34,725 nucleotides of DNA from Acidobacteriota bacterium. GTDB lineage: Bacteria; Acidobacteriota; Terriglobia; Terriglobales; Acidobacteriaceae. The notes below the pieces were generated by a model. That model searched no databases. It saw only the letters and a program-made list of their open reading frames with translations, and had not been told where the DNA came from. The DNA lies in contig QIAL01000318.1 of the NCBI GenBank assembly GCA_003225535.1, positions 1-34,725 of the forward strand, read 5' to 3'. The position numbers and the translations under genes were made by a program. Position 1 is the stretch's first letter, and every line of letters begins with the position of its first letter. Shown piece after piece: positions 10,131 through 22,366 of the stretch.

Positions 10131-11408
10131 ATGAGTACGCTTACAGGGTTGCGGAATTTCTGGCTACCGTGGGTTACGACGATTGTTCTGGCTTGCTTGG
10201 GCAATGCCTTCTCACAAGTAAGCTACAAAGTTACCGATTTAGGCGCTCTGGGGAATGACAATTTGGGTTGTGCCATGTCCATCAATAATGAAGGCTGGGT
10301 GGTGATCCAGGATGCGAGCATGGTACCGGGGCAGCAGGATAACGCGGGCGGGACAATTTTAAAGGCACGCGATGCGATAGGCATCAACGGATTCCAGATC
10401 GACCTCGGCACGCTCGGAGGACCGAACAGTTGGATGAACTGGGGTGAGATCAACGACTTCGGGCAGATAGTGGGTTATTCCGAAACGGCTGTCCCAGACC
10501 CGAACGGCGAAGACGTTTGCACCTTCGGCACACACCTTACTTGTCGCCCGTTTCTTTGGCAATTTTTCCACATGAGCGCTCTCCGGACACTCGGTGGAAA
10601 TAACGGGCAGGCGAGCGCGATCAACAACCGTGGACAAATCGTAGGATTTGCAGAAGACGGTACCGTGGACTCCTCATGCCCTGCTGGCAAAACTAATAAT
10701 CGGACTCAACTGCCGGTGTTGTGGGAAAACGGCAAAGCCAAAGCCAAAGCTCTTCCTACAGGTAACGATCCAAGCGGAAATGCACTTTGGATCAATGATA
10801 AAGGCCAAATCGTAGGCTTCACGGGAGCCTGCGCTGCGACGAGTCACGCCGTTGTGTGGGACCACGACAATGTAAGCACGCTTCCTGACAACAAAACTGG
10901 CGCTGAGGCTTTCGGCAATAACAACCGGGGCCAAATTGTTGGATTCGTCGGCGCCCCCGACAGCGGAATCCCGAATGCCGCGCTTTGGCAGAATGACATG
11001 CTCATCAACCTCGGCCTTCTGCCGGGAGATCTTGGCGGCATAGCCAGCGGCATCAACGATAAGGGCCAAGTCGTGGGAAGCAACTTCGACTCGAAGGGCA
11101 ACTGGAACCATGCTTTCATCTGGCAGAACAACGTCATGACCGACCTCAACGCGCTGTTTCCTCGCAATTCCAACCTCTTCGCAGTCATGGCTAACAAAAT
11201 CAACGAACGCGGACAAATCTCGGGAATGGCAATCGTGCTCAGCGGGCCGGATGCGCTCAACATCCACGCCTTTGTGGCAACCCCAGTAAACCAAAGCATG
11301 GGCCAGTCGGTTGCAGATGTCGCACCTACACGCCCGAAATCCAATTTACCCGCGAATGTTAGCAACCAGCATTTGCAGAGATTCGGACTCGGCCGATTCG
11401 AGCAATAA
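10131..11408 (+). CDS. Secreted HAF-repeat protein
   Basis: The 425-residue protein starts with a signal peptide (about residues 1-29, ending near GNAFSQ). It carries at least six copies of the HAF-type repeat core, INxxGQIVGF: INDFGQIVGYS, INNRGQIVGFA, INDKGQIVGFT, NNNRGQIVGFV, INDKGQVVGSN and INERGQISGMA, spaced about 45-65 residues apart. Each is preceded by a short L-x-x-LGG-like turn and followed by AxLW or AFxW, from which the family is named. These repeats are predicted to form an extracellular beta-propeller-like fold; the function is unknown. The last 45 residues are Pro/Gln-rich and unrelated to the repeat. The ATG at 10131 has AGAGGA close by and GGAGG 11 bases upstream, next to the structured leader. 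Confidence 0.85.
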   Translation: MSTLTGLRNFWLPWVTTIVLACLGNAFSQVSYKVTDLGALGNDNLGCAMSINNEGWVVIQDASMVPGQQDNAGGTILKARDAIGINGFQIDLGTLGGPNSWMNWGEINDFGQIVGYSETAVPDPNGEDVCTFGTHLTCRPFLWQFFHMSALRTLGGNNGQASAINNRGQIVGFAEDGTVDSSCPAGKTNNRTQLPVLWENGKAKAKALPTGNDPSGNALWINDKGQIVGFTGACAATSHAVVWDHDNVSTLPDNKTGAEAFGNNNRGQIVGFVGAPDSGIPNAALWQNDMLINLGLLPGDLGGIASGINDKGQVVGSNFDSKGNWNHAFIWQNNVMTDLNALFPRNSNLFAVMANKINERGQISGMAIVLSGPDALNIHAFVATPVNQSMGQSVADVAPTRPKSNLPANVSNQHLQRFGLGRFEQ

Positions 11409-11864: not shown

Positions 11865-13442
11865 TTACTTGGAGTGCCTGCGCGTCGGGGTGGCAGGCTG
11901 AACCGCGTTGGCGGCTCGGCGCACATCGTCGTTTGTGAACACTGCAAAAAGGTACGGCTGTGATTCGAGGAAATGAGCCAGGTCACGCAACGTCAGACCA
12001 AGAGACGATAGCCGGTCCTCATCGACGAAGATCTGGCCGTTTTCCGGTTCGAAGGACGTAACCAGCTGCTTCGCCTCTGGATCAAACTTCTCGTGCAACA
12101 GGTCTACGATCGATGGTGCCAAGTGCCGGCGATCCGGCGACGATGGTTCCGGTGGCATGCCATGGTCCGCGGTCACCGCAAGGAGATAGTCATTACCCAC
12201 CTTTGCTTCTAACGCACTCAGGATCCGCTTCAACTGACGATCCATCTCGCCGAGCGTGACGCGCAGTTCGTTCGAATCAGGACCGTACTTGTGGCCCACG
12301 AAATCCGCGCCCTTGTAGTTCATCAGAATGAGGTCTGGAACGTTGTCTTCGCCGAGCGGCTCTCGCTCCATCATCGCGGCCATCGCATCGGCTTCGAATG
12401 CTGGAAACAGAGCCGAATATCGCACCGCCTGGGTCGAGTCGATTTTATGACCCATCCACTCCCCGCTCGCCGGCCACAATGTTTTCGCGTTGCGATCCTT
12501 CAGATACGCAGGCAGCCGGAAACAGTTGGGGTTTGTGGTCCAGTTGCCCGAGTCCTGATCGTAGCTTGCGAGAACGACAGGCGCTCCATTCAACTGACAC
12601 GCTCCATGTCCTGCGAGCGGCGTCGCCGCTCGGTCGATGCTGCCCTGTGCCAAGATGATCGCGCGACCAGCCGTCTCCAGTTGCCAGACGTCAGCCAGCG
12701 TCAATGCCATCAGGTCTTGCGGCATTCCTCCAGCGAAAGAGTCGTGGCGCCGGCGCTGCGTGCGCTCGTATACGCTGACCCCTGTGATTCCGTGCACGCG
12801 AGGATCGGCTCCGGTCGAGAGCGTCGAGTGCCCAACGGCTGTGTTGGTCGGAAGAAAGTTAACCTGCGCCTGAGTGAACCAGGCACTATGCTGGCGCAGG
12901 GCGGTGAGCGTTGGCATGGACGCGGCGTAGCGATCGAAATAATCCCGGCGCATGCCATCCAGGACGAGCAGCATTACCACTCGTGGTCGAGCCAAACCAG
13001 TGCGTAAAACTGGTAACACATGGCCTGTCGTCGTGGGAGGCATCTGCACGCCCAGCGCAGCCGCAAGGGTTGGCGCAACGTCCTGCTGCACGGCCGGAGT
13101 CGAGTACGTTCCCGTTCTTACCGCGGGGCCCGCAAACATCAGCGGAATCGCTACGTCATATATCCACGGCGAACCGTGCATGTACGCCACGTCGGGCCGC
13201 GTGATGAAGTCGCCTTCGCGCGGCACGATCAGGAGTTGGCCGGTTCGTCCCGGGAAGTATGCTCGAGCAAACATCTCCAAGAAGCGCTGTCGCGTCGCAA
13301 GGGTGTTTGAATCGGCTGGTGCTGCATGCTGGATCCGAGGTGCGTCGCTCCCAATAGATCGCTGGACCTGCTGGCTCGAAACCGTCCAAGTCATCGCGAT
13401 TAGGGTCAGGGTGATAGCGATCCGCGATCCTACTTTGCGCAT
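11865..13442 (-). CDS. Alkaline-phosphatase-superfamily phosphohydrolase, apparently circularly permuted
   Basis: A 525-residue exported enzyme (signal peptide about residues 1-23) of the type I phosphodiesterase/PafA-like group. The core runs in order: metal Asp162 in LLVLDGMRRDYF, nucleophile region PTNTAVGHSTLSTG (Thr201 likely), Asp380 and His384 in KGADFVGHKYGPDS, and Asp426-His427 in TADHG. The last ligand block, normally near the C-terminus (HGSP..YD..IPL.F.G, then DVAPTLAAALG), is instead at residues 88-131, before the core (His89). The C-terminus stops at about residue 510, where that block would normally follow. All expected metal ligands are therefore present but in rotated order. 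Substrates are unknown; phosphomono- or diesters are expected, in the periplasm. It stands alone, with no clear ribosome-binding site at the ATG. Confidence 0.82.
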   Translation of the reverse strand: MRKVGSRIAITLTLIAMTWTVSSQQVQRSIGSDAPRIQHAAPADSNTLATRQRFLEMFARAYFPGRTGQLLIVPREGDFITRPDVAYMHGSPWIYDVAIPLMFAGPAVRTGTYSTPAVQQDVAPTLAAALGVQMPPTTTGHVLPVLRTGLARPRVVMLLVLDGMRRDYFDRYAASMPTLTALRQHSAWFTQAQVNFLPTNTAVGHSTLSTGADPRVHGITGVSVYERTQRRRHDSFAGGMPQDLMALTLADVWQLETAGRAIILAQGSIDRAATPLAGHGACQLNGAPVVLASYDQDSGNWTTNPNCFRLPAYLKDRNAKTLWPASGEWMGHKIDSTQAVRYSALFPAFEADAMAAMMEREPLGEDNVPDLILMNYKGADFVGHKYGPDSNELRVTLGEMDRQLKRILSALEAKVGNDYLLAVTADHGMPPEPSSPDRRHLAPSIVDLLHEKFDPEAKQLVTSFEPENGQIFVDEDRLSSLGLTLRDLAHFLESQPYLFAVFTNDDVRRAANAVQPATPTRRHSK

Positions 13443-14416: not shown

Positions 14417-15124
14417 CTATTTCTTCCGCCGTCGCACGCGCACATCAAAGCTGATCACACCGTTCTGATCGCGCGTGCCCAGCACCGATATGTTGCGATT
14501 GATGTAGTACTCGCCCTGGATGATTTGTTGTGAACTCTGGGATACGTTGGTGCTGTAGCTGAGGGAGAGATTGTTGGCGAACTCCTGCTCAATCGTGATC
14601 TGTGGCCCACGGCCGGTGGGATTGGTTTCTGTGGTCAAGCCCTGCGGATCGATCTTGATCCGGCTGACTCCGAACAATTTCTGCATGCGATTGCCGACCG
14701 CCGAATTGATCGCCTGATTGATGATCAGATTCGTGGCCTCGTCGTTGAACAGGGTCTGCCCCGACTGCTGCTGCAACTGTTCCGACTCTTCACTGGTGCG
14801 TCCCAAGGCCAGCAATGCAATGATGTCCGACTTCGGCAGCGGCGGTTCGGAGCGATAGTTCACGTTCAATCTGTCGGGAGTACCCGTCACGGTCACATCC
14901 AGATCGTAGTTGCGAACGTGGGTGGTGGCTTGCAAGTTGACCTGCGGTTCGATGGCCACCGGATTAGCAAAAGTAATATCGCCGCGCTCTAAACGGAACT
15001 TGATCCCATTAAATGTGGCGTCGCCTTCGAGGATGTCGGCGCGTCCCAGCACACTTGGCCGCGCGAGAGAACCGCGCAGTCTGAGATCAGCGTCGCCTGA
15101 AAGTCTTGCGACCGCCGTCTTCAT
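14417..15124 (-). CDS. tamB: TamB-like protein, C-terminal segment
   Basis: This 235-residue segment is the conserved TamB (DUF490) C-terminus, which docks to the Omp85 partner: ILEGDATFNGIKFRLERGDI, then PLPKSDIIALLALGRTSEE, and the terminal beta-strands ending VRVRRRKK. Its ATG overlaps the TGA of the preceding segment (ATGA), so it could be a coupled separate polypeptide. However, codons upstream of that ATG in the same frame read VRTAPELQ, which looks like native TamB sequence, so a frameshift or small deletion at about 15135-15165 is more likely. It lies in the same frame as the N-terminal segment (16673-18403), so the two breaks cancel. The gene is followed by pcm. Confidence 0.85.
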   Translation of the reverse strand: MKTAVARLSGDADLRLRGSLARPSVLGRADILEGDATFNGIKFRLERGDITFANPVAIEPQVNLQATTHVRNYDLDVTVTGTPDRLNVNYRSEPPLPKSDIIALLALGRTSEESEQLQQQSGQTLFNDEATNLIINQAINSAVGNRMQKLFGVSRIKIDPQGLTTETNPTGRGPQITIEQEFANNLSLSYSTNVSQSSQQIIQGEYYINRNISVLGTRDQNGVISFDVRVRRRKK

Positions 15125-16910
15125 CTGGAGTTCGGGCGCGGTCCGGACCGCGACTGCCGGCTACGCTCCAGATACGACGCAAAGTCGAAGCCCGGCGTCA
15201 CGGCAAGCTTCGTCACTAAGACGTCACCCGAAAGAGTCGATGCCGACTTCGTACCCGCCCAATGCAATTCCATTGTGGCCATGGAACTCACACCCGGCGG
15301 ATTGCGAAGCCTGACGTCTTTACCGATCGCACTGAGGTTGAAATTGAGCTGCTGATTGTAGTTGGTGGCTTCTCCCTTGAGATCGAGCGTGCCCCCTCCA
15401 GCACGGCCCGTCAGTTGTTCGATGTAAATGCGATCGCGGGTGAACTGGAGCGTGCCATTGAGCTCGCTTAGGCCGCTCGGGATCCCGGCGTAATTGGCGG
15501 TGCCATTCTTAATCTCGATCGTGCCCTGGGGCAGCGGATCTCGCACCGTGCCACCGAGAGTCCCGTGGATTGTCGCCTGGCCGCCCGCAGTAAGGTTTGA
15601 ATCGATCCCACCAAGCAGCCGCAGATCGACGAGCCCGTCTGCCGCAATATCGAGCCGGTGCGCCTCCGCATAGTAAATGGCCCCATGTCCGGTTACATCG
15701 GTGCCCTCTCCCACGAAATGCGTTTCCGGGATCTGAAGAATGCGATCGACATAGGTGAACCGCGCCGGACCCTGATTGTGCAGCTTGGCGTACTCGACAT
15801 CGACGGCTACATCGGTCAGATTCCCATCCAGCCTCCATTGCTGCGTGTGGCGCAATGGTCCCTGCATCGTGACACTGCCAATCACGGCCGAGTGACCGGT
15901 CAATTGATCGCCGAGGTAAGCGCGCCACAACGCGTCCAGATCCAGATGATCCATATGTGCCGTGATATTGGCCGGATAATCGCCTTGCATCCCGACGGTT
16001 CCGTCCACCGTCAGCGAGCCCTTGGGGAACTGGGAATGGCCGCTTACCACAAGTTCCCGCTCCTTCGTGATCGCTTGCAGGAAAAGATCGCCGGTGAGTT
16101 CGCGATCCAGGGTCAGATTGCGCACATGCACGGCCGCACTTATTACTGGAGCTCCCAACGTTCCAGAAGCTTGCAGAGTGAAGTCGGCGCGACCCTCGAT
16201 TGGCAACTCGTCCAGGTGAATCTGGCGCACCCGCGACAAATCGAAATCCTTGCCCGCGAGATCGAGATGGAATCCACTCGCGGATGGCGCGAAGGTGGCA
16301 GTGCCAGTTACTTCCGCATCCTGGTGCGTAAGACGAATATTACTCAGTGTGGTTTCGGCTCCCCCGAAGCGAAGATCGGCATCGAACTTTTCAATCTCCT
16401 CGCCGTACGCGGAGGCATTGGTCGCGCGAATATGCCCTTGTCCCTGCGGATTAGCGCGCGTTCCGTTGATTTGCAGGCTCACGTCCGCCGTTCCAGTCAG
16501 CGGATAGTCCAAATCGGCGAGCGCTGCGGTCGAGGCAACATCGACATTGTGCAGATTGATGCGCGCCAGGTACGGACTGTTCTCGGTGAGTTTTCCTTTG
16601 TCCAGGCTTGCGCTGAATTCAAAATCGGCGCTGGTATCACCCCGCCGCAAGCTGCCGCCACGCAGCAGAAGCTCATTTGACGATAAATCTACGCTCGCCC
16701 CCAGAGAGTCCCAATGCACAGCCTTTTTGGGAGTCCGCGAGGTGGCCGGCACCGTAAACTCGAAGTCCTCCGCCACCAGCGTTCCGGCGATTCTCGGCGA
16801 GGAAAACGTTCCGCCGGCCGCGCCGCTGAAGGTCGCGTTGCCATTCACTTGAAATGGAAGGTCGGTGGGCCCGCCCAAAGCCTGAGGAAGCCGCCAACGT
16901 TCCCGCACAA
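15121..16910 (-). pseudogene. tamB: TamB-like protein, middle segment (out of frame with its neighbours)
   Basis: The frame is rich in TamB-type repeated beta-strand units (LPFQVNGNATFSGAAGG, HWDSLGASVDLSSNELLLRG, LPQGTIEIKNGTANYAG). The recognisable part begins at about 16910 with LPQALGGPTDLPF. The same frame is open upstream to 17211, but that sequence is not TamB-like and overlaps the coding N-terminal segment. No start codon with a ribosome-binding site lies near the switch point, so as it stands this part would not be made on its own. It ends SYLERSRQSRSGPRPNS and a TGA at 15121. Either the gene has been disrupted by two small indels or the assembly has errors here. Confidence 0.7.
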
Positions 16911-18403
16911 ACGATCTTGGAATCCGGCGTAGAAAGGGAGAACTGAGCGAGTTCCAGAGAGTCACTGATCCGGCGATATTTCCCCTGAATGTGCGCCGTG
17001 ATGGGTAATTCTCGAGTCGCTGGTTTCGCCGGAGGAGCGACCTCGAGGCTGACGCCAACTTCGGCATTCTGGGGGCTTCCCTTCCAATTCGCGTCCACGT
17101 TTCCGCATGCTGCTCCCGCCGGATGAAAACCGTCCAGAGGATGTGCCGAGGTGTCCATGGCAGAGGCTGCCTCGCCGACGGAAACGTCGCGTATCCGCAG
17201 GTGCACCACACCAGTCTGCACCTCCGGCGACTTCACTTTCTCACCCCTCTTGGCTGAAGGCCGTGATACTCCGATCCGAGGCAGGTCCTGCTTTTTTTCT
17301 TTTTCCGCAGAATAGGGAACGCTGTGCAGCCAGTTGTCCACTTCAGCATCGCCGGTAAACGCGCCGCCCAGCAGCTTTCCTTGCAACTTCGACAGCTTGA
17401 TCTGATCGTCGCTGAACGAATAGTCGGCAGACGCACTCGCCTTTTTGAGAGCGAATTGATCGTTCTGCCAGCCCAGATCCCGTATCGCCAGCGCTCCCGA
17501 AGTCCTGAACTCCTTCAAGGACCAATGTCCATTGCCCTTGAACTCCGCGCTGCCCTCACGTAAGTCGTTGCGACGAGCGATGGCCGCCATTTCACCGAGA
17601 TGGATCTTCGCATCGTAACTTCCATCGAGATGAGGATCGCGGAAGTTGGTGATTCTCCCGTTGGCTTCGATCGACGAGCGGCCTGAATTCCATTTCAGAG
17701 ACTTGATATCGGCGAAGGTAGGCGCGAGGCTGAAATCAAGAGCCGTCATCCAGGAAAATGGCCGCAGATCCTGAATCGCAGCGTCGACCTTGCCCAGCGC
17801 CACGTGACCGTCATACCTGCCTCGCAGGAAGGAATAATCCATCTCGACGTTCGCGCTTCGGACGTCGAAGTTGAGAGGAACCTTCTGATCGGCCCACAGC
17901 AACTCGCCGTTGCGAACCGAGAGGTGATCGATGGAAAGCGCGAAAAGCTCCTCGACAGGCGAAGGGCCAGACCCTCTCGGCAACTGTTGCAGCGACGGAA
18001 TGTTCGTAGTTGAGCCATCCGGCCCAATGACGACATGGATCACGGGACGTTCGAGAGTCAGCGATTGAAATCCGAATTGTGTGCGCAAAAATGAAATGAC
18101 TTTGACTTGTCCGACCACGCTGTCGGCATGAAGCAGAGGAGCGTCCTTCGGAGATTCCTTGCCATGCACGGTGATGTTGCGGATTTCCGCCTGTAAGTGA
18201 AAGGGAACAACGTGGAAGCTGCCGATTTCCGCGCGCCCGCCAGTGATCCGTTCAATTTCCCTGACCATCCGCTGGTGGACATAATTCTGGAATGAATTTG
18301 TCGTGCTATACCAGAGTCCCGCCAGCACGGCGATAATCATGACCCCGGCGGTGATCAGAATGTATTTCCACCAGCGCGGAGCTCTGGCGGCACGCTGCTT
18401 CAC
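16673..18403 (-). CDS. tamB: TamB/AsmA-like protein, N-terminal segment
   Basis: TamB spans the periplasm and, with an Omp85 partner, helps outer-membrane assembly and lipid transport. This segment has the N-terminal membrane anchor (residues 13-31), then the AsmA/TamB beginning (YVHQRMVREIERITGGRAEI, with FHLQAEIRNITVHG) and periodic beta-strand units. TamB-like sequence holds to about residue 505 (near nt 16890, ending TPDSKIVCAGTLAAS); beyond that the frame to 16673 is not family-like. The other frame picks up at LPQALGGPTDLPF. The GTG start at 18403 overlaps the stop of the surA-like gene (GTGA), with GAGGGAG upstream, so translation is coupled. Confidence 0.8.
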   Translation of the reverse strand: MKQRAARAPRWWKYILITAGVMIIAVLAGLWYSTTNSFQNYVHQRMVREIERITGGRAEIGSFHVVPFHLQAEIRNITVHGKESPKDAPLLHADSVVGQVKVISFLRTQFGFQSLTLERPVIHVVIGPDGSTTNIPSLQQLPRGSGPSPVEELFALSIDHLSVRNGELLWADQKVPLNFDVRSANVEMDYSFLRGRYDGHVALGKVDAAIQDLRPFSWMTALDFSLAPTFADIKSLKWNSGRSSIEANGRITNFRDPHLDGSYDAKIHLGEMAAIARRNDLREGSAEFKGNGHWSLKEFRTSGALAIRDLGWQNDQFALKKASASADYSFSDDQIKLSKLQGKLLGGAFTGDAEVDNWLHSVPYSAEKEKKQDLPRIGVSRPSAKRGEKVKSPEVQTGVVHLRIRDVSVGEAASAMDTSAHPLDGFHPAGAACGNVDANWKGSPQNAEVGVSLEVAPPAKPATRELPITAHIQGKYRRISDSLELAQFSLSTPDSKIVCAGTLAASSGFGRAHRPSISSEWQRDLQRRGRRNVFLAENRRNAGGGGLRVYGAGHLADSQKGCALGLSGGERRFIVK

Positions 18404-19054: not shown

Positions 19055-22000
19055 TCAGAATGGCTGGCCTATGCTGAAGAAAACGTTGAAACGCCGTAAC
19101 GACTGCGTGACCACCTCGGGCATCGGATTCGTGTTTAGCTGAAAATATCGGGTCGGATTCAGGCTATATCCGAAATCGAACCGCAATGGGCCTAAGGGTG
19201 TCTTGTATCGTACGCCAACTCCCACGGCGTGCGAAGTGTAATCATACCCGGAGTTATTGAAGTTGATAATGCACGGGTTGTTCGTTGTACTACTGGGTAG
19301 GCATTGTGCCGTGTCGGGCTGATGCCAGCGCATCAGGCCCTTTAGCATGTCGTGCGGCGCAGTGAAGACATTCCCCATGTCGTGGAAAATGGCAAAGCCA
19401 AATCCTTCTCCCAGGTAGGGCAGCGAAACCGGCGGGAACCGCAGTTCCAGATTGTTGACGAATACCGCCGTGCCGCCAACCGGGAAACCGGACGACGGAT
19501 CGCGCGGTCCTGCCTGATTTAACCCGAAACCGCGATGGGAGTTGCCCCCGCCCGCGAAGAATTGTTCCGGCAAGGGAATCGTAGCGAATTCGCAGGTCGG
19601 CTCCCCAGCCGAGTTTAAAGGGCAAGACCCGGGGGGCAGTACACGCGTCCCCTGGAACGGCTGCTCCAGTCCAATGCTCGTCGAGCGAGCGAATACGAAC
19701 CTGCGCTCGGGCTTACCCTTGCCGAAGGCATGGTAGGTGGAATACTGGACCAGTGCCCGGCCAAAATTCGTGGGTAGCGTGGACTCCGGCGTTTCGGAAC
19801 GCGACCCGAAGATACTCGCCGCCACCGATGAATCCAAGGTAAAGTAGTCGCCCTTCGTACTCTCCAGCGGGTTATCGCGTTTGTCGTGAATAAACGTGAA
19901 CCCGGGCCCGCCAACACGGGCAGGCAGCGACAACAACGCAATCGCCCCGGGGGAAAAATTCGTCGCGAAGTGGCTGGCCTTGACGGCCCGAAAGTCGAAG
20001 CGATACGTGATCGAGTTCGGTCCGGTACGGGTGCCGGGTTCCGTCCCCGCATTCCCGAACTGCTGCCGAAGATCGATCTTCCCCTCTAGCCGCTGCGAGG
20101 TAAACGTGGCGACGTCCAGGCTGTTGTCGTAAAAGATCGTGTAGATAAGCTTGAACTTATTGCTATTGAGTAACTTCGGCACCGTGTAGCTGATGAGTCC
20201 GCGCTGTTGCAGACGGCCGACGTGCGACTGGAACGTTATTGTCTGGTCGCGTCCGGCAAAGTTAAGCCGTGTCACGTCGAACTCTACCCGTGGGCTCACG
20301 CCAGTCTTGCCCTGTGGCGCACTCGCGCCCGCCGGCTGGCCGGTCTGAAACTCAAGTCCAAGTCCGTAGGTAAATGTGTAACGTTTGGCCTCGCGAACCT
20401 GGATCAGAATGTTTTTCAGCGGATCGTTGCCTTCCGGATTTTGCACCGCCGCATCCACCTGGCTGAATATCCCGAGGTCGTAGAGCCGGGTCTGCGTGTT
20501 CAGCAAGTCTCGCTGGCTGAGCGGCTCTCCGGCATGCACCTGCAGGTCGCGTTGCACCACGAAGTCGCGCGTATGTTCCAAACCTCCCACCATCACCTGA
20601 TCGACGGTGAAGCGTTCGCCTTCCTGAATGGAGAAGGTCACATCTTCCCGGTTGGGCTCTGTAGGGGAATGATTTGTCGCGATTTCCAGGGACGCATTGG
20701 GAAATCCATGATCGAAGTAGTAGCCCAGGATTCGCTCTCGATCATTGGCCAGGTCCTGCTCTGAGTAGGGCTGTCCGGGCTGCGTACTCAACTCGGGCAG
20801 ATCGCTGGTCTTGACCTTCTGATTGCCGACCACATGCGCCTCGCCAACCGTCGTTCGTGGCCCTTCATCGATGTGGATATGAACGGCAAGTTTGTTCGCT
20901 GCTCCCTGGTAGTTATCATCCACTTTGGTTTCAATCTTCACCGCCCGAAAACCACTGCTCTTGTAAAGGCCTTCCAGAGTCGCAACGTCATTCTTCAGCA
21001 GGTCCTCGCTGTAGCGTCCGTGACTCAAGAACCGGCTGGCCGGCTGAATCTGAAGGTAAGAACGGAGTTTCGCCGTATCCAGAAAATTCTTATTGCCCGA
21101 AATGTCGATGAGAGCCAGTTTGTGCGAAGGACCGGCGTCGATCTCATAAATGATTCTGAGTGTCTTGGGATCGTTCTCTTTCTTGATTTCCACCTTGGCG
21201 TCAAAATGTCCCCGGGTTTGCAAATAATCGAGCAGGTTCTTCATGCCCTCATTCAGCAGGTCATCGTCGACGGCATTTTCCTCGTAAACGGGGATCTCCC
21301 GCTTGAGCACGCCACGACTCACGTGATACCCGCGCGCCGAAATCAGCACCACCGGGCCGGGGTCGATCTGAAAGGTAAAATCCAGCGCATTCCTCTCTGG
21401 CCGATAAGTCTGTGCGGCGATAGACACCTGAGCGAGGGCGCGGTTCTGCTTCTGGAACTTTCTGCGCAGTCGCTGCAACGAGCCCGTCACACGGGCGGCG
21501 GTGACGCGATCGCCACTATTGATGTGGGCAATCCCCTGGACCTCAGCCGGAGACAGGCTCGAGGTTCCGGTCACTTTCACTTCCCCGATGTGCGCCTGCG
21601 GCCCGGCGTCGATGTGAAACAGAATGTCCACTTGCTGAGCGCTGGGGTTGGACGTGCTTTCCGCGGTTACTCGAGCCTTGTAATATCCGTTCTCCTGCAT
21701 CACCTGGCGGACGTTCTCGAGCGCGCGATCCAATTTGTCCTGGCCGTAGCGCTCTCCGAGCTGGAATTTCGAGGCGTTGACGATCTGGTTTGCATTCGGA
21801 CGGCTGGGCGCTCCCTCAACGTCAACGGCACCCACAAAGTAGTTCGGCGTGGTGACGAAAGCCAGCACTACGCCGCTGCCCGTGGGCGTGACTTCCGCCT
21901 GGATATCGGCAAATCGACCGGTCCCGTAGAGTGCGCGAATACTCGCGCTGACCTGGTCCCGATTCAGCGGACTTCCAACTTCTTGCGGAAGTAATTCAAG

Positions 22001-22204
22001 CAGGTGATCCCGGTCGCGTTCCGCGACACCCGGCAGATCGATCGCTACAACCGTTTTCCCCTCGTAATTTGTTCCTGGAGTCGAATCCTGCGGGACGGAT
22101 GAAGACATTGTCACTGCACCTGAAACGGGAGTGGCCCCCTGCGATAAAGCCGCCGCCCAGACGAACATTATCGCGGTCAAACATGTCGCGTACCGTCTCA
22201 GCAA
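19055..22204 (-). CDS. bamA: BamA/Omp85 outer-membrane assembly factor with seven POTRA domains
   Basis: BamA is the central barrel of the machine that folds beta-barrel proteins into the outer membrane. From the TTG at 22204, residues 1-30 are a signal peptide. Seven POTRA-type repeats can be counted at about 47-119, 121-202, 203-284, 285-359, 360-449, 450-530 and 531-607, followed by the barrel (608-1049). The loop-6 motif is HRGF (about 890-893), and the protein ends in Phe, as outer-membrane proteins do. E. coli BamA has five POTRA domains. The frame is open to a TTG at 22303, but that adds 33 unlikely residues and has no ribosome-binding site, whereas 22204 has AAGGA four bases upstream. 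It is the first gene of the operon with surA-like, tamB-like and pcm. Confidence 0.9.
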   Translation of the reverse strand: MLRRYATCLTAIMFVWAAALSQGATPVSGAVTMSSSVPQDSTPGTNYEGKTVVAIDLPGVAERDRDHLLELLPQEVGSPLNRDQVSASIRALYGTGRFADIQAEVTPTGSGVVLAFVTTPNYFVGAVDVEGAPSRPNANQIVNASKFQLGERYGQDKLDRALENVRQVMQENGYYKARVTAESTSNPSAQQVDILFHIDAGPQAHIGEVKVTGTSSLSPAEVQGIAHINSGDRVTAARVTGSLQRLRRKFQKQNRALAQVSIAAQTYRPERNALDFTFQIDPGPVVLISARGYHVSRGVLKREIPVYEENAVDDDLLNEGMKNLLDYLQTRGHFDAKVEIKKENDPKTLRIIYEIDAGPSHKLALIDISGNKNFLDTAKLRSYLQIQPASRFLSHGRYSEDLLKNDVATLEGLYKSSGFRAVKIETKVDDNYQGAANKLAVHIHIDEGPRTTVGEAHVVGNQKVKTSDLPELSTQPGQPYSEQDLANDRERILGYYFDHGFPNASLEIATNHSPTEPNREDVTFSIQEGERFTVDQVMVGGLEHTRDFVVQRDLQVHAGEPLSQRDLLNTQTRLYDLGIFSQVDAAVQNPEGNDPLKNILIQVREAKRYTFTYGLGLEFQTGQPAGASAPQGKTGVSPRVEFDVTRLNFAGRDQTITFQSHVGRLQQRGLISYTVPKLLNSNKFKLIYTIFYDNSLDVATFTSQRLEGKIDLRQQFGNAGTEPGTRTGPNSITYRFDFRAVKASHFATNFSPGAIALLSLPARVGGPGFTFIHDKRDNPLESTKGDYFTLDSSVAASIFGSRSETPESTLPTNFGRALVQYSTYHAFGKGKPERRFVFARSTSIGLEQPFQGTRVLPPGSCPLNSAGEPTCEFATIPLPEQFFAGGGNSHRGFGLNQAGPRDPSSGFPVGGTAVFVNNLELRFPPVSLPYLGEGFGFAIFHDMGNVFTAPHDMLKGLMRWHQPDTAQCLPSSTTNNPCIINFNNSGYDYTSHAVGVGVRYKTPLGPLRFDFGYSLNPTRYFQLNTNPMPEVVTQSLRRFNVFFSIGQPF

Positions 22205-22301
22205 GGTGTCCTTGGAATCAGGCGCTCTCTGACTTCGATACGTACGCCCGTTCGGTTCGTTGTATGAGTTAGGCTCAACCTCGAGCGCAGAACTCTGTTT
22301 C

Positions 22302-22366
22302 AAACCACGAAAAACGCGGAGATAGGAATCGCAATTCCATCGTGCCCTTCGTGTCTTTTGTGGTTT
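22302..22366. repeat. Fold-back inverted repeat between bamA and the MoeB-like gene
   Basis: The outer arms begin AAACCAC (22302-22308) and end GTGGTTT (22360-22366); over about 20 bases they match at roughly 16 positions. A central stem GGAAT/ATTCC (22325-22338) closes the element. It sits between divergent genes, 36 bases before a TATAAT. Part of the right arm resembles the run at 34261-34291 before dapB. It looks like a small dispersed repeat. Confidence 0.5.

Follow-up and report, generated by a model that had tools for sequence, protein, structure and literature searches.

An apparently circularly permuted, PafA-like family of the alkaline phosphatase superfamily conserved in Acidobacteriota

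The stretch of DNA analysed here, hereafter the window, comprises 34,725 nucleotides of contig QIAL01000318.1 from an Acidobacteriaceae assembly (GCA_003225535.1), and carries on its minus strand an ATG-initiated open reading frame (ORF) of 525 aa without internal stops (Table 1). To one side of this gene lies a 425-aa ORF (positions 10131-11408, plus strand), in which repeated 'INDxGQIVG'-type motifs are visible by eye and whose sole Pfam match, to DUF3466, is slightly under the cut-off. To the other side, a TamB-like sequence on the minus strand (14417-18403) extends across two ORFs (235 and 696 aa), both matched by the Pfam TamB model; a 576-aa ORF lies upstream of these in another frame, a frameshift being possible, and an Omp85/POTRA gene (19055-22303) adjoins the TamB-like ORFs.

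The best Pfam model of the 525-aa protein is that of the nucleotide pyrophosphatase/phosphodiesterases (NPPs; PF01663, E 3.6e-32), which covers only residues 156-435, and PF01676 and PF00884 also exceed their cut-offs. The best NCBIfam model is the PafA alkaline phosphatase equivalog NF042991, at 165.4 bits against a curated cut-off of 650 bits, such that membership of the PafA equivalog is not met. This match falls into three stretches, and a search of the genome with the PafA model places model positions 34-216 at window positions 12480-12995, 256-440 at 11958-12479 and 453-549 at 13014-13307. Similarly, PafA itself (5tj3) is the top match in a plain search of PDB sequences, in three pieces and in rotated order: query residues 148-229, 356-507 and 62-141 correspond to chain positions 13-96, 270-431 and 448-527, respectively. 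In the same search, the displaced block alone matches 5tj3 with an i-Evalue of 6e-4.

The original prediction, made from the DNA alone, had located His89, Asp162, Thr201 and Asp426 in this protein and claimed that an HGSP-type block, which in PafA-like enzymes comes last, stands ahead of the first metal-binding Asp. Both points are borne out in the 525-aa ORF, where M88-H89-G90-S91-P92, Y95-D96 and I99-P100-L101, followed by D121-x-A-P-T-L-A, all precede D162, and by the rotated order into which the PDB and NCBIfam PafA matches split. The block does not recur before the chain terminates at residue 525. A last His near the C-terminus is the usual, though not strictly defining, order in the alkaline phosphatase superfamily; it is not met here, with His89 lying ahead of Asp162.

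Table 1. Features of the permuted gene, in window coordinates, with the support for each
Feature	Position	Strand	Support
Whole permuted gene, 525 aa	11865..13442	-	ORF, PDB and NCBIfam matches
New N-terminus, hydrophobic and Sec-signal-like, residues 1-25	13368..13442	-	By eye; pLDDT below 50 over residues 1-41; weak dN/dS constraint over residues 1-49
Moved block, residues 50-147, equivalent to canonical C-terminus	13002..13295	-	PDB, NCBIfam and profile matches
His89, PafA His486 position	13176..13178	-	His in 36/36 permuted rows
Joint, residues 144-152, old C-terminus directly into old N-terminus	12987..13013	-	Sequence and profiles
Core, residues 148-513, canonical columns about 62-457	11904..13001	-	Pfam, structural match, profile
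Asp162, PafA Asp38 position	12957..12959	-	Asp in 36/36
Thr201, PafA Thr79 position (nucleophile)	12840..12842	-	Thr in 36/36
Val222 at PafA Asn100 position	12777..12779	-	Permuted rows N 26/36, V 10/36
Ile269 at PafA Lys162 position, Lys missing	12636..12638	-	Permuted rows I 11, A 17, T 8
Arg271, PafA Arg164 position	12630..12632	-	35/36
Cys282, putative disulfide with Cys307	12597..12599	-	Invariant, 36/36
Cys307, putative disulfide with Cys282	12522..12524	-	Invariant, 36/36
Asp380, PafA Asp305 position	12303..12305	-	36/36
His384, PafA His309 position	12291..12293	-	36/36
Asp426-His427, PafA Asp352-His353 positions	12162..12167	-	36/36

We compared profiles of 36 permuted proteins, with the window's placed first, and of their blocks alone, with a profile of 20 canonical proteins, of which one is plasmid-borne and 19 come from genomes of the same phylum as the window. 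Residues 145-509, the permuted core, aligned to canonical columns 62-457 with 100% probability (E 2.7e-52), and the moved block to columns 462-558 of 575 with 99.6% probability (E 1.2e-24), which, as profile matches go, is far above chance. Since the two matches nearly abut, there is neither loss nor duplication past the canonical signal region. The same split recurs in a canonical-profile search of 16 carrier genomes, for example, as 40-428 plus 433-525 in genome G560 and 40-433 plus 431-525 in G599; the core match of the window gene stops earlier (40-401, plus 432-525). In the window protein, the canonical C-terminal end, GHVLPVLR, is joined to the first core strand, ARPRVVMLLVLDG, with no linker. 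Every part is thus present once and in rotated order, as a natural permutation demands. The original prediction would have been refuted had residues 50-145 proved to be an unrelated domain in homologues; these instead show the canonical C-terminal block, and its profile match rules out an unrelated N-terminal domain. The further inference of a true permutation rather than two fused partial domains is supported, as the canonical protein is covered once, cut at columns 457/462. Judged by these sequence comparisons, the protein is a circularly permuted relative of PafA and PhoK within the alkaline phosphatase superfamily.

AlphaFold2 modelling on 21 permuted sequences gave a pLDDT of 81.3 and a pTM of 0.82 for the full chain, with pLDDT below 50 in 77 of the 525 residues (mainly 1-41, 218-228, 230-244 and 516-525) and ten-residue means of 82-96 over residues 71-150 and 72 over residues 61-70. 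Folded alone, the block attained a pLDDT of 68 and a pTM of 0.47, its residues 16-49 (window residues 58-91) falling below 50. A predicted block that is confident in the full chain and poor in isolation is what would be expected if it needs the core; further, with roughly 15% of the chain disordered, a loosely attached block would, we infer, hardly permit a pTM of 0.82. The core model matches PafA 5tj3 with a Z-score of 26.7 over 353 residues (3.6 A, 24% identity), followed by PhoK/SPAP (Z 23.7) and phosphonoacetate hydrolase (Z 18.8). Together with the Pfam models above their cut-offs, this satisfies membership of the superfamily by core fold. PafA and PhoK/SPAP (3q3q, 5xwi), which have the same block at the C-terminus, are the best matches in both sequence and fold. 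In contrast, the NPPs match the core with a Z-score of 16.5 or lower, and the window order is rotated relative to theirs. As structural aligners preserve chain order, only the core and not the placement of the block is tested by these matches, and support for where the block sits comes from pLDDT and pTM alone. The order-preserving TM-score against 5tj3 is 0.51.

An alternative is that a C-terminally truncated enzyme gained an extra C-terminal piece in front, yielding two fused partial domains without a single rotated fold. The block is indeed separable in sequence and poorly modelled on its own, and its contact with the core has not been shown by coordinates. Nevertheless, we give this reading little credence, for the piece in front is the very segment (462-558) that begins just past the end of the core match (457), its His is invariant, its dN/dS is as low as that of the core (see below), and the pTM, with so few residues of low pLDDT, leaves by inference little room for a loose block. 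A single permuted chain hence remains the preferred reading.

The positions of PafA Asp38, Thr79, Asp305, His309, Asp352, His353 and His486, which we take to be the metal ligands and the nucleophile, bear the same residues in 36/36 permuted and 58/58 canonical rows, and His89, at the His486 position, is presumably a metal ligand. The Thr/Ser nucleophile and six metal-ligand positions that mark the superfamily are thus present in all 36 permuted rows. While the permuted family shares all metal and nucleophile positions with PafA, it differs from PafA and PhoK/SPAP in its rotated chain, the loss of the Lys162 position, the variable Asn100 position and the invariant Cys282 and Cys307 (36/36), which may form a disulfide. 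Lys at the PafA Lys162 position is found in none of the 36 permuted rows (I 11, A 17, T 8) against 57 of the 58 canonical ones, the remaining one having a gap; presumably, the permuted family resembles the NPPs in this absence. Asn at the Asn100 position is retained in 26 permuted rows and replaced by Val in ten, including the window's, against Asn in all 58 canonical rows; Arg is kept at the Arg164 position in 35 of 36. The PafA site-residue criterion of Lys162, Arg164 and Asn100 is hence not met. The title of PDB entry 5too, a T79S, N100A, K162A, R164A mutant, points to the importance of these three residues in PafA.

Given the loss of the Lys162 position and the ten rows with Val for Asn100, PafA-like monoesterase activity cannot be assumed, and we infer that the former shifts substrate preference away from that of PafA. 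The new N-termini of the permuted proteins resemble export signals by eye, with lipobox-like cysteines in L075, L078, L079 and L080. The family most likely comprises exported, metal-dependent phosphoryl hydrolases with a Thr nucleophile and a specificity altered from that of PafA, although export and chemistry are inferred and there are no activity data. The same losses at the Lys162 and Asn100 positions could also be read as signs of a permuted protein that is catalytically dead or repurposed for a binding or regulatory role, more so as a full canonical paralogue is also kept in most carrier genomes searched (see below). This appears unlikely in light of the invariant nucleophile and metal-ligand positions and of the selection acting on the gene, which leaves a working hydrolase as the favoured interpretation. 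Relative to the window gene, ten pairwise estimates of dN/dS (by the Nei-Gojobori method, with ratios from printed values) ranged over 0.09-0.26 for the moved block, 0.11-0.22 for the core and 0.34-1.15 for residues 1-49. Both block and core are under purifying selection, and a block dN/dS as low as that of the core implies that the block is maintained as part of the protein.

The rotated order, whose conservation in homologues the original prediction had left to be established, recurs in 36 distinct proteins, the 35 others sharing 40-94% identity with that of the window. A scan of named genomes yielded nine loci with this order at 77-94% identity, all from metagenome-assembled genomes (MAGs); L043 and L046 are cut at contig ends and L045 has a masked stretch. 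Two of 45 genomes in the window's genus carry the permuted gene (E <= 1e-30): that of the window itself and G023, which is the same record as L038 of the named-genome scan. The larger searches scored just the top candidates of each genome (three in the 396-genome phylum and 399-genome class samples, eight in the 193-genome class), and their counts are therefore lower bounds. In the phylum sample, at least 21 of 396 genomes match at E <= 1e-25, at least 15 with the permuted order (counting the window's own genome and a broken copy in G484) and six with the canonical one. The class of G761 has matches in at least 28 of 193 genomes (E <= 1e-40), with an intact permuted gene in 25 (26 copies), a gene truncated at a contig end in G801, the broken one in G484 and a canonical one in G749. 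In the window's class, at least 25 of 399 sampled genomes match (E <= 1e-25), of which 23 are canonical, one, the window's own, is permuted, and L060 is unclassified, with no C-terminal block found there. Coverage beyond Acidobacteriota is limited to the named-genome contig scan and the plasmid, viral and PDB searches. Nine plasmid records match, none across more than 80% of the query; the order was checked in two, those of Vibrio THAF190c and Alisedimentitalea, and is canonical in both. No relative was found in the viral contigs searched.

Individual loci present further variations. The broken copy of G484 (G484:C32:163299-164409; L084, L092) has its reading frame split in two and lacks a portion of the moved block, its His included. 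G755 has two permuted copies of differing subclades, G755:C57:12604-14028 and G755:C18:12514-13959, one falling in the window-type clade and the other in that of family f37. L041 (QHOS01000207.1), a copy with 80% identity that sits on a 3.3-kb contig of a Verrucomicrobia-labelled MAG, could reflect transfer or misbinning. In G026 (L029), a match running through stops had suggested an intermediate of tandem duplication, but it proved over-extended, and the locus has no tandem copy. A canonical paralogue, as a separate match of at least 345 bits, is present in 13 of the 16 carrier genomes searched; a canonical match is absent from G599 and G580 at E <= 1e-10 in the canonical-profile genome search. 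In the window's genome, a canonical PafA relative is apparently split over two contig ends (G000:C318:3-623 and G000:C1018:6065-6286).

An assembly chimera or annotation artefact of metagenome bins might be suspected from the fragmentation of the window genome (1086 contigs, 85% complete) and the MAG provenance of all nine named-genome loci. Yet the identical order is seen in independent assemblies, among them that of G560, a carrier on a single 7.5-Mb contig whose permuted gene is 82% identical to the window's, and it is kept by homologues as distant as 40% identity. For the family, these refute an artefact, to which we assign practically no weight against a genuine permuted gene.

In a quick tree without bootstrap, for which 36 permuted and 58 canonical rows were rotated to a common order, the permuted rows are separated from the canonical ones by a branch whose SH-aLRT is 100. 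No canonical-order row lies inside the permuted branch of this 94-row tree, and a single change suffices for the order label, compared with a mean of 29 after shuffling. The permuted stem is long (1.61), and the meeting of long branches (L088 and the permuted rows) calls for caution. When the core of the window protein serves as the BLAST query, scores are 302-783 bits for full-length permuted ORFs and at most 134 for canonical ones. As far as sequence trees and scores can tell, the permuted genes form one branch apart from the canonical ones, probably with a single origin. As PafA, PhoK and other acidobacterial relatives all have the canonical order, we infer it to be ancestral. The window-type subclade, the branching of which is poorly resolved, mixes families f1, f31, f61, f71 and f97, a Pyrinomonadaceae MAG and the MAG labelled Verrucomicrobia; this mixture suggests, by inference, horizontal transfer. 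The window gene has a G+C content of 0.60 and a GC3 of 0.68, like its neighbours.

Gene neighbourhoods, compared over about 6-8 kb on either side as contigs permitted, revealed no neighbour cluster common to more than two window-type loci. The window and L039 have in common Omp85-like and ThiF-like genes several kb off, and a different cluster is common to G755 and G531. The permuted gene of five family-f37 genomes is flanked by DPPIV/S9 peptidase-type and creatininase-type genes, in some with an intervening ORF (Pfam assignment was run on the copies of one genome). The neighbours give no pointer to a substrate.

The fold and chemistry of AlgX and the DHHW proteins differ from those of the alkaline phosphatase superfamily. 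They are the nearest analogue in kind, being circularly permuted SGNH hydrolases with the esterase active-site order naturally rotated to H-S-G-N (PMC9487903). PafA homologues in Acidobacteria were noted earlier, and the term 'permut' is absent from the text of that source as far as it was accessible to a term search (PMC8812569). In the open-licence literature, no natural permutation in the alkaline phosphatase superfamily was among the matches listed, subscription papers and preprints being outside this scope. The chemistry inferred here is familiar for the superfamily; its setting on a rotated chain has no counterpart among those matches.

Direct observation extends to the rotated order and its conservation, to the invariant site residues and to purifying selection; around these we propose the following scenario. 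A single old event, probably in Acidobacteriota (age and place are both inferred), would have rotated a PafA-like gene, moving the C-terminal part with the last metal-binding His ahead of the first strand of the core, fusing the old C-terminus directly to the old N-terminus and opening new termini between the last helix region of the core and the block. The export signal, if such it is, would have ended up ahead of the moved block. The rotated chain is predicted to rebuild the normal alkaline phosphatase fold with a complete two-metal site, closure of the fold being an inference, and Thr201 would attack the phosphoryl group to form a phospho-threonine intermediate, regenerated by water, although this chemistry too is inferred. 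Even without an experimental structure or activity data, we hold it highly probable that one rotated PafA-like gene with a rebuilt fold and working site is the best explanation of the whole. The broader proposition, that this is the first recognised naturally permuted family of the superfamily, of one origin, spread vertically and horizontally in soil Acidobacteriota, often beside PafA paralogues, and of a new substrate class through the Lys loss, we regard as evenly balanced.

Enzyme evolution and catalytic promiscuity both have a standard model in the alkaline phosphatase superfamily. Being kept in dozens of related genes, the rotation is evidently a natural redesign that works. As a stable, conserved rearrangement in which a metal ligand comes first rather than last, it would allow one to ask, in a natural case, whether this fold is constrained by the order of the chain, the order of folding and the assembly of the active site. 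The PafA profile detects such a protein only piecewise and far under its cut-off, and the family would add uncharacterised, apparently exported phosphohydrolases to the cycling of phosphorus in soil.
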